Assembly: GCA_902826695.1 (NCBI GenBank) | Contig: CADEFU010000010.1 | Location: 62,001 to 126,000 of the forward strand | Length of the DNA stretch: 64,000 nucleotides | Source: an uncultured Alphaproteobacteria bacterium | Lineage (GTDB): Bacteria; Pseudomonadota; Alphaproteobacteria; Micropepsales; Micropepsaceae | Reading direction: 5' to 3' | Shown: positions 39,112-41,961 of the stretch, piece by piece | How positions within the stretch are numbered: the stretch's first letter is position 1 | Layout of the letters: each line of letters begins with the position of its first letter | Program-made: the position numbers and the translations under genes | The notes under the pieces: generated by a model | Databases searched by the model: none | Told to the model about the DNA's origin: nothing | The model's input: the letters and a program-made list of their open reading frames with translations, nothing else

Positions 39112-39837
39112 TTGGTCGCCGTTCGCTCGCTGCTCTTTCAAGCGTTCTTCTGGATTTGGTCTACGCTGATCAATCTTGCGTACATCCCTGCCCTGCTGCT
39201 TGACCGCAAGGTCGTGCTGAACGGTCAGGAGATTTGGGCGCGGGTAAGCCTGTGGGGGCTCAAATGGATCGCTGGGCTCGACTACGAGGTGCGCGGGCGG
39301 GAGAACATACCCGCGGGCCCCGTGATGATCGCAGCCAAGCATCTCTCGATGTGGGAGACCTTGGCCGCGCATGTGCTGGTGCACCATCCGGCGACGGTGA
39401 TGAAGCGCCAACTGCTTTGGATCCCGGGCTACGGTTGGTACTCGCGCAAGGCGAAGATGATCGTGATCGATCGCGACGCCGGTGCGGGCGCGATCCGCAC
39501 TATGATCGGCGCCGCGAAGGCGCGCCTCGCCGAAGGGCGGCCGATCGTGATCTTTCCGGAAGGCACGCGGCGCGAACTGGGTACGCCCGTCGATTACAAG
39601 CCCGGCGTCGCGGCGCTTTACACCATGCTCGACATACCGTGCGTGCCGATGGCCCACAATTCGAGCTTGTACTGGCCACGCCGCGGGTTCTTGCGGAAGC
39701 CGGGGAAGATCATCGTCGAGTTCTTGCCGGCGATCATGCCGGGGTTGAAGCGACCTGCCTTCATGGCGGAACTCGAGAAGCGCACTGAGGATGCGGTGGC
39801 GCGGTTGCTCAAAGAGGGCGACTATCAGGCGGCGTGA
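39112..39837 (+). CDS. plsC: 1-acyl-sn-glycerol-3-phosphate acyltransferase
   Basis: 241 residues from a TTG at 39112; the frame is open further upstream but that part overlaps the YdcF gene and is Arg-rich. It acylates lysophosphatidic acid to phosphatidic acid. Motif I reads KHLSMWET (His77 to Glu82), with Glu where the textbook HX4D has Asp. Motif III is FPEGTRRELG, followed by the proline-containing CVPMAHNS. An N-terminal hydrophobic segment anchors it. The last 13 bases overlap the convergent gene at 39825. Confidence 0.93.
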   Translation: MVAVRSLLFQAFFWIWSTLINLAYIPALLLDRKVVLNGQEIWARVSLWGLKWIAGLDYEVRGRENIPAGPVMIAAKHLSMWETLAAHVLVHHPATVMKRQLLWIPGYGWYSRKAKMIVIDRDAGAGAIRTMIGAAKARLAEGRPIVIFPEGTRRELGTPVDYKPGVAALYTMLDIPCVPMAHNSSLYWPRRGFLRKPGKIIVEFLPAIMPGLKRPAFMAELEKRTEDAVARLLKEGDYQAA

Positions 39838-41729
39838 TCAGCGGGCTCGATGCGAAGCGCGACGCGGTCTTTGAGCACTACCGAGATTGAAGCATCACCG
39901 CCTGGATCAGCGACGAAACTCTGACTGGCGTTGAACGTGTAGCGACGGCCGGGGCTCAAACGCGCGAGCTTCAAGGTTTGTTTGCCGCTGCCGTAGAGCA
40001 CGAGGTTGAGGTTTGTCCCGTTGCTTGAGGCGTGCGCAACGAGCACTTCGGGGTAGCTTGCTTGAGCAAGGATGGGGCCGGTGCGGGTTGCCTGCGCGGG
40101 GCCTTCGACGACGGAGCGGCGGAAGTCGCCGGTGCGCATGATGGCGCCGAGTGCGGCTTGGGCATTGATCAGGTTCGATGCGCGCATATAGCGGCGGACT
40201 CCGTCTCTCGTTTCGAGGCCGCAGTCTTCGTCGAGGCTTCGCTGGGCGGCGTCGGCGATTTCGTCGTCGCCGAATTCGCGCGCCGCGATCAGGTGCGAGC
40301 AGTAGCCGACGCCGTGACCGATGCCGTAGTTGCCGGGGTCGGCGCCGGGACCGGGGAGTTTGATGCGCAGTTGGCCGCGCGCGTTCGGTTTCAAGCGCGG
40401 CTCGACTTCTTTGCGGGCGATCGCCCATTGCCGTTGGGCGAAGTCCGGCGCGAAGCAGTTGGCGAACCGGCTGGTGTCGGCTTCCCAAGTCGGGAAAGGG
40501 AATTCGAGGCCCAGGTGTTGCGAGCGCAGACCGACGATTGAGCCTGCGCTATCGGTGAATTCGGTTTCGAGCTTTTCGCGCCAGCGCGGCAAGATGCGGC
40601 TTATGTCGCCGGTGCCGAAGAGGTGGTCATGAGCTGCTAGCGCGGCCATGCCGTAGTGGTTGCAGAGCGGGTAGATCCAGTTTGGCTCGCACGGGTAAAG
40701 GCAGAAATCGCCGGCGTGGCGCGCATAGTTGTCGGTGATCGAGCGCATCATTGTGTGGAAGTCGTGCGCGTAGGCCGTGCGTTCGTTCAGCTTGAAGGTG
40801 AGACTTCGGGCTTCGGCGTAGCGGCGGTCGCCACTGGCGGTCATGTATTGGCCGACCTGCACGCCGAACCAACCGGTTAGCATGATGTTGTCGCGTGCGG
40901 CGGGGTCGAAGTTCTTGAAATTCAGGTGGCCCCACATCGACTCGTAGATCCAATAACTCCAGACGCGGCGGAGCAGGTACTTTTGGATCAGGTTGTTTTG
41001 CGCTTGGGCTAGGTAGCCGGTGAAACTTGGAAGGTAAGCGCATTGCGCGACGCCGAGGGCGAAGCCCATGTGGTTCAGCTGGTAGCGCAGGGCGGCCGGC
41101 TGAAATTGGTCGATGATGTCGAACCCGCCGAACTGGTCGACCGGTTGAAGTGCGCGGTCGTAGACATAGCGCAGGGCTGCGAGTTGATCGACGGTGAGTT
41201 CGCGCGTCTCCGTCGGCGGCTTCGCGGCGCGTTCTCTCACCTCGGTGAGCGAGGTGGGGAGGAAGGCGTTGCGGTGTGCGCGGGTGCGGGCGTTCAGTCT
41301 CTCGCGGATCGCGTCGCCGATGCCATAGGCGGCAACCAGCGCGGCGATCGCGCCTAGTGCAACGAGTTGGTCTGATCCCGTGACGGGTTCTTGCGCGCGG
41401 CTTGCGGCGACGATCGCTGCGCCGAGCCAGACTGCGGCAGGCGCTATGACCATGCCGGCCCAGAACCAGGCGAGGAGCGCGAGGCCGAAGACAACGATGG
41501 TGCCGAAGAGCAGGGCGACGTCTGGGACTGCGAGGAAGCCTGCGCCAGGGAACCAAAGACCGAGGCCGAACGTCTGCGTTGGGGTGTTGCCGAGCATGAT
41601 CAGCGAGAGACCGGAAGCCCAGACGGCGGCGAAGACTAGAGCGGCGCGGCTTTGACGCTTGGCGGTGACCGGGCCTTTTGGCCGTCGAGCGATTGCGGGC
41701 TCTGCCGCGTCAGTTGCTGCGCGCGACAT
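39825..41729 (-). CDS. Membrane-anchored linalool dehydratase/isomerase-like protein
   Basis: 634 residues. Residues 28-140 contain four hydrophobic segments. Residues 180-634 form a helical, (alpha/alpha)-barrel-like domain that I align to linalool dehydratase/isomerase (LinD). NIMLTGWFGVQVGQYMTASGDRRYAEA matches LinD's NIMYKGHLNL region, and CEPNWIYPLC (Cys347, Cys356) matches LinD's CEPDNYFVQC with identical spacing. Trp287 stands where, from memory, LinD has a catalytic His, so the chemistry may differ. LinD is periplasmic and soluble; a fused membrane region is unlike it. A small membrane protein gene overlaps its start by 20 bases. Family membership is moderately sure, substrate unknown. 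Confidence 0.72.
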   Translation of the reverse strand: MSRAATDAAEPAIARRPKGPVTAKRQSRAALVFAAVWASGLSLIMLGNTPTQTFGLGLWFPGAGFLAVPDVALLFGTIVVFGLALLAWFWAGMVIAPAAVWLGAAIVAASRAQEPVTGSDQLVALGAIAALVAAYGIGDAIRERLNARTRAHRNAFLPTSLTEVRERAAKPPTETRELTVDQLAALRYVYDRALQPVDQFGGFDIIDQFQPAALRYQLNHMGFALGVAQCAYLPSFTGYLAQAQNNLIQKYLLRRVWSYWIYESMWGHLNFKNFDPAARDNIMLTGWFGVQVGQYMTASGDRRYAEARSLTFKLNERTAYAHDFHTMMRSITDNYARHAGDFCLYPCEPNWIYPLCNHYGMAALAAHDHLFGTGDISRILPRWREKLETEFTDSAGSIVGLRSQHLGLEFPFPTWEADTSRFANCFAPDFAQRQWAIARKEVEPRLKPNARGQLRIKLPGPGADPGNYGIGHGVGYCSHLIAAREFGDDEIADAAQRSLDEDCGLETRDGVRRYMRASNLINAQAALGAIMRTGDFRRSVVEGPAQATRTGPILAQASYPEVLVAHASSNGTNLNLVLYGSGKQTLKLARLSPGRRYTFNASQSFVADPGGDASISVVLKDRVALRIEPADHAA

Positions 41730-41961
41730 CGGCCGTGCAGGTTTCTTTGTGCGGCGCGAGTTGCACGACTGTTGCGATCAGGAGCGTCGAGGTGGCGAGC
41801 AGCAATGCGGCGGTGCTTGCAACGGCGCGCGGCTGCGTCCGACTGTCCACCAGCGGCCACGCAACGACATCGTTCCCGCTCACGGCGAGCTGTGCGCGGA
41901 GCCAGCGCACGGGCCAGAGCAACTGGGAGACGATGAAGAAGGCGAATGCGCAACACGCCAT
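41710..41961 (-). CDS. Small membrane protein coupled to the LinD-like gene
   Basis: 83 residues with two hydrophobic segments (CCAFAFFIVSQLLWPVRWL and AVASTAALLLATSTLLIATVVQLA). The stop lies 20 bases inside the start of the downstream LinD-like gene, a typical coupled arrangement. I recognise no family. It could also be an artefact of composition, but the hydrophobic pattern and the overlap favour a real gene. Confidence 0.5.
   Translation of the reverse strand: MACCAFAFFIVSQLLWPVRWLRAQLAVSGNDVVAWPLVDSRTQPRAVASTAALLLATSTLLIATVVQLAPHKETCTADVARSN

Follow-up and report, generated by a model that had tools for sequence, protein, structure and literature searches.

The window analysed here, a 64,000-nucleotide stretch of a contig from an uncultured alphaproteobacterium of the family Micropepsaceae, carries on its minus strand a pair of overlapping genes that code for a large membrane-anchored enzyme and a small membrane protein. 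The large protein is a homolog of the linalool isomerase Lis, a bacterial enzyme that turns the fragrant alcohol linalool into geraniol, and the small one belongs to a family that we call MxCC after its conserved first residues. The features of the pair are the following (positions are those of the window).

39825..41729, minus strand: Lis-type linalool isomerase homolog, 634 aa, assigned by PF18566 match, identity to Lis, clade and model; membrane helices in residues 20-168, LinD-like (alpha/alpha) barrel in 174-549, beta domain at about 553-629
40662..40691, minus strand: codons 347-356 of the isomerase gene, CEPNWIYPLC, including the counterparts of LinD Cys171 and Cys180 in the alignment
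40869..40871, minus strand: codon 287 of the isomerase gene, tryptophan at the LinD His129 position in alignments to LinD and Lis
41710..41961, minus strand: MxCC small membrane protein, 83 aa, with a MACC start

The small gene and the start of the isomerase gene share 20 nt, and the product of the small gene is modelled with two helices (residues 2-28 and 46-68), as the initial annotation of this DNA had described. The pair is flanked by plsC, ydcF-like and ftsX-like genes on one side and by a ribonucleotide reductase gene on the other; a terpene pathway around the isomerase gene was sought, and none was found within the window, where these genes stand instead. In seven congeners plsC and nrdJ are directly adjacent, and in the window genome the two-gene module lies between them. 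A second carrier of the pair (G007, loci L002 and L004) again has it beside nrdJ, with further ORFs between the pair and plsC. The pair may have been gained by its carriers or lost in the other genomes, and the data fit both histories.

Family, fold and pocket residues of the large protein

A profile search placed residues 215-519 of the 634-aa protein in the Ldi family (PF18566; 6.9e-86, 289.1 bits, against a Pfam cut-off of 26.1 bits), covering positions 1-317 of the 318 in the profile, while NCBIfam returned no match for either window protein. An AlphaFold model built from 31 homologs (mean pLDDT 91, pTM 0.90) aligned with LinD (5g1w) over 327 residues between positions 174 and 549, with Z of 35.0, rmsd of 2.3 and 20% identity; the next-best fold families were the GH105 and GH76 barrels, at Z of about 20. 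Both the family membership and the LinD (alpha/alpha) barrel that had been proposed from the letters of the sequence are thus confirmed. Outside the part matched to LinD, the model contains four N-terminal helices (residues 20-45, 71-91, 96-111 and 118-168) and a C-terminal beta domain (about residues 553-629), which the initial annotation had missed. The membrane region that it saw fused in front of the barrel is borne out by these helices, by a GRAVY of 0.72 for residues 1-150 compared with -0.34 beyond, and by hydropathy peaks that fall within residues 29-141.

When the protein is aligned to LinD, Cys347 corresponds to Cys171, Cys356 to Cys180, Met283 to Met125 and Trp287 to His129, a numbering that matches the names of the LinD mutants in the PDB (C171A, C180A, M125A). 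The cysteine motif had been proposed to have the LinD spacing, and its two cysteines do fall on those of LinD; they are invariant in the 31 homologs. The enzyme also has a conserved region with the pattern AWF-x2-GMV-x-AP-x2-VWLG. The suggestion that a tryptophan stands in place of a LinD histidine was likewise correct. However, the same position is occupied by tryptophan in Lis too, and by tryptophan, tyrosine or phenylalanine in 31 of 31 membrane-type sequences. Since Lis and the membrane branch share the aromatic residue, the change from histidine to tryptophan characterises the Lis type and is no peculiarity of the window protein. Judged from the sequences compared, the residue at LinD position 129 separates a soluble LinD type (histidine) from a membrane type (tryptophan, tyrosine or phenylalanine), and the aromatic residue may be related to the dehydratase activity that Lis reportedly lacks.

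Lis of Thauera linaloolentis 47Lol was identified by activity, fractionation and mass spectrometry as a 644-residue protein of the inner membrane with four N-terminal membrane helices (PMC4791888). Over 612 residues, the membrane part included, the window protein shares 51% identity with Lis, as compared to about 20% with LinD, and it falls in one clade with Lis (support 100/96). The proposal that the enzyme represents an uncharacterised branch of the family therefore fails, because identity and clade both tie it to the biochemically identified Lis. The window protein resembles Lis (EC 5.4.4.4, ENO87364) in its length, membrane helices, Ldi-type barrel, CEPNW-x4-C motif and tryptophan at the His129 position. 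With LinD/Ldi of Castellaniella defragrans 65Phen (PDB 5HLR, 5G1U) it shares the barrel fold and both pocket cysteines; LinD, however, is soluble and periplasmic, carries His129 and shows dehydratase activity, whereas the window protein adds a membrane domain and a C-terminal beta domain and carries Trp287. Lacking the histidine and the soluble, exported form without a membrane domain that define the LinD type, having membrane helices fused to an Ldi domain, and being more similar to Lis, with which it forms a supported clade, than to LinD, the window enzyme is by sequence a new member of the known Lis type.

Soluble Ldi homologs were also encountered in G355 (L054), Rhodococcus erythropolis (L079) and Allorhizobium (L080). 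These share the two conserved cysteines and a C-terminal extension with the window protein, but they have neither its N-terminal membrane region nor an MxCC gene nearby. Two of them (L054 1327-2901 and L080 4941-6503) form a longer soluble type of about 520 aa, with NIMYSAY instead of NIMLTGW. The third, on plasmid pRSLBG43 (L079 5752-7452), is annotated as hypothetical, is apparently exported and shares its cluster with genes for aldehyde and alcohol dehydrogenases, an AMP-binding ligase and a P450, which makes it a candidate terpene-alcohol enzyme. In another alphaproteobacterium (G280, L056 1165-3455) a LinD-like soluble gene keeps the histidine at position 129 and is directly followed by an ORF that resembles a diverged paralog without the cysteine motif.

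The MxCC family and its linkage to the isomerase gene

MxCC proteins have an invariant M-x-C-C start, a hydrophobic helix and basic residues, mostly followed by a second helix, an HxxH motif and a C-terminal cysteine. Among the two-helix members the cysteine pair is present in 21/21, HxxH in 17/21 and the C-terminal cysteine in 19/21; short forms consist of the CC helix alone, and conservation is weak outside M-x-C-C. The window protein has the M-x-C-C start, the hydrophobic helix and a gene beside a membrane-type Ldi gene, with HKETC (His70 and Cys75) at the place of HxxH. We considered HxxH as an essential feature of the family and rejected this, as the motif is absent from the window protein and from the short forms. 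Compared with its nearest homolog, the window gene shows a dN/dS of about 0.43 (NG86 dN 0.448, dS 1.049). A chance ORF in GC-rich DNA is ruled out by homologs with the invariant M-x-C-C beside homologous genes in distant bacteria. Pfam gave no match for the window protein and none that was consistent over 17 family members; candidate known families came down to single weak matches in one member each (for example Caa3_CtaG at 0.0012), and a search of phage records for a viral origin returned no match. In the literature and the profile libraries searched (Pfam, NCBIfam) this partner has, as far as these searches reach, no earlier description.

The cysteine pair and the HxxH motif, with the frequencies given above, might suggest that the MxCC protein binds a metal (copper, iron or zinc) and acts as a metal or redox factor in the assembly of the isomerase or of a linked oxidation step. 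In three distant lineages Ldi genes have copper or thiol assembly genes as neighbours, which is suggestive: a Cu-type P-ATPase together with DsbD_2 (L026 7766-12771), CtaG (L078 5170-8439) and SCO (L080 4941-7014). Yet each of these neighbours is a single case, the window protein and the short forms do without HxxH, and UV-VIS spectra of enriched Lis gave no evidence of a cofactor (PMC4791888), so that we regard a metal-binding role as unlikely.

The MxCC gene lies just upstream of the isomerase gene in 22 of the 28 loci, with about 0.03 expected by chance. A strict DNA scan, which accepted an MxCC ORF on the same strand within 1.1 kb upstream, found it in 21/28 loci and gave one match in the remaining 889 kb; a variant form, MYPCC (L026), brings the count from 21 to 22. 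In T. linaloolentis and Thauera sp. Sel9 the gene is located about 7.7-8 kb upstream of lis, beside an acyl-CoA synthase gene in the atu-lis region, and in M. gordonae a short form lies about 1.8 kb downstream of the isomerase gene. Two of the 28 loci have their MxCC gene elsewhere in the genome, away from the isomerase gene, and in N. marmoriginsengisoli a search of the locus and the genome found none. For T. linaloolentis an 8-kb flank had suggested that the gene was missing, a conclusion that we discarded when a genome search placed it on the lis contig beyond the flank; in the published description of the atu-lis region the intervening genes are called hypothetical and the MxCC gene is unmentioned (PMC4847356).

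As a test on data outside the definition of the family we used three plasmid-borne membrane-type homologs. On Novosphingobium pSA1 an MxCC gene follows 7 bp after the enzyme gene, and no MxCC gene was found in about 13 kb around the Aureimonas and R. opacus homologs. Across 61 related genomes, the enzyme and the MxCC protein occur in exactly the same three. In a sample of 398 genomes, for which 12 candidates at most were scored per genome and which is hence less sensitive, the MxCC protein was found in the window genome only, and two others have soluble Ldi genes without it. The coupling to a small membrane protein that had been proposed from the overlap at the window locus is therefore supported both by the upstream position and by the co-occurrence in the 61 genomes.

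Among the loci with both genes, one in a Sterolibacteriaceae MAG (L007 996-11279) has the pair beside an XylR-type regulator, an aldehyde dehydrogenase and phenol-hydroxylase-like di-iron monooxygenase genes. Neighbours vary, the most widely shared family being present in 7/31 loci, and one fixed pathway could not be read from them.

These arrangements bear on whether the MxCC protein only belongs to the same regulon as a Lis-type enzyme, for example as a membrane-stress or terpene-tolerance protein, with no direct effect on the isomerase. The distance to lis in T. linaloolentis, where the MxCC gene adjoins the acyl-CoA synthase gene instead, and the weak conservation outside M-x-C-C are in line with such a role. 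So is the MxCC gene of Hydrocarboniphaga (L053 1-8322), which sits in a catabolic cluster with thiolase-like and CoA-ligase-like ORFs, resembling those that adjoin the Spongiibacter isomerase gene (L023); there is no Ldi match within 20 kb of it, and the isomerase gene is elsewhere in the genome. However, in the majority of loci, which range from Alphaproteobacteria to Actinomycetota and Bacillota, the MxCC gene directly adjoins the isomerase gene while the remaining neighbours differ, and the overlapping pair of the window stands by itself. We therefore consider shared regulation by itself the less credible account, although it carries more weight than metal binding.

Host pathway and substrate

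Two features distinguish the window pair from its counterpart in T. linaloolentis: its two genes overlap, where the MxCC gene of T. linaloolentis lies about 7.7 kb upstream of lis in the atu region, and the pair is outside any terpene operon. The window genome does contain an atu-like operon on another contig (L038), with a TetR-type regulator, AtuA, a carboxyltransferase, a hydratase, a biotin carboxylase with carrier domain and acyl-CoA dehydrogenases. Compared with their T. linaloolentis counterparts, its AtuA shows 49% identity and its carboxylase subunits 55% and 49%. Mass spectrometry of linalool-grown T. linaloolentis cells identified AtuC and AtuF (PMC4847356). This operon supports a geraniol route but does not prove it, because carboxyltransferases about 54% identical to that of the operon are also present in congeners that lack the isomerase. 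The AtuA gene of this operon (contig 17, L038 1-11305) is a second copy in the window genome, whereas the other sampled members of the genus have at most one AtuA.

The 51% identity to Lis leaves the substrate of the window protein unfixed. For the membrane-embedded isoprenoid alcohol or other lipid that the initial annotation had suggested, the window offers no evidence. A longer membrane isoprenoid alcohol (a sesquiterpene or diterpene alcohol or a polyprenol) in place of linalool or geraniol would be consistent with the membrane anchoring and with surroundings free of terpene genes. On plasmid pAU20b of Aureimonas sp. AU20 (L077 4826-7975), moreover, a distant membrane-type homolog shares 4 nt with uppS, the polyprenyl diphosphate synthase gene, and has a diacylglycerol-kinase-like gene after it, which hints at longer prenyl alcohols as substrates of some Ldi family members. 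Against this, linalool and geraniol are the substrates of Lis, the closest characterised enzyme and a member of the same clade, and the window genome holds the atu-like operon; a long-chain substrate for the window enzyme thus appears improbable.

A probable two-gene linalool-isomerase module

Taken with the linkage described above, we think it probable that the pair forms a two-gene linalool-isomerase module, composed of a Lis-type enzyme and a dedicated MxCC partner. Several observations count against this: the pair is outside a terpene operon and the atu-like operon on another contig, the MxCC gene of T. linaloolentis lies at a distance from lis, two other genomes have it away from the isomerase gene, and for three membrane-type homologs no MxCC gene was found. 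By analogy with Lis, from which we infer both reaction and location, the large protein would be anchored in the inner membrane, and its catalytic barrel would probably face the cytoplasm. There it would interconvert the tertiary and the primary isomer of an allylic alcohol (linalool and geraniol, or close relatives of these) with no need for a cofactor or oxygen, provided that the two pocket cysteines are reduced; Lis activity indeed requires a reductant (PMC4791888). Lis is also sensitive to detergent. The primary alcohol could then be oxidised and enter the acyclic-terpene-utilisation (Atu) route. As to the MxCC protein, we infer a role as partner of the isomerase: its most likely job would be to associate with the membrane domain and to aid the maturation of the enzyme or its thiol state, and the isomerase may fail to work without it.

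When Lis was expressed alone in E. coli it reached the membrane and was inactive, which its authors suggested was due to misfolding (PMC4791888). A required partner is a direct, testable hypothesis because of this inactivity, and a missing partner offers an alternative to misfolding that fits the gene linkage. That membrane-bound linalool isomerases require the MxCC protein as a second component, and that the absence of this protein explains the inactive Lis, is a possibility which we advance tentatively; as part of the same proposal, and with the same caution, the MxCC proteins could constitute a new family of small membrane proteins with a maturation or redox function.

LinD and linalool isomerase are of chemical interest as enzymes that rearrange or dehydrate allylic alcohols without cofactors, and characterisation of the membrane-bound form is limited to a single organism, whose enzyme showed no activity when produced alone in E. 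coli. The enzyme type of the window is already known, and what is new is the MxCC small protein. This conserved and so far unnamed partner gene makes the cause of the inactivity in E. coli directly testable.
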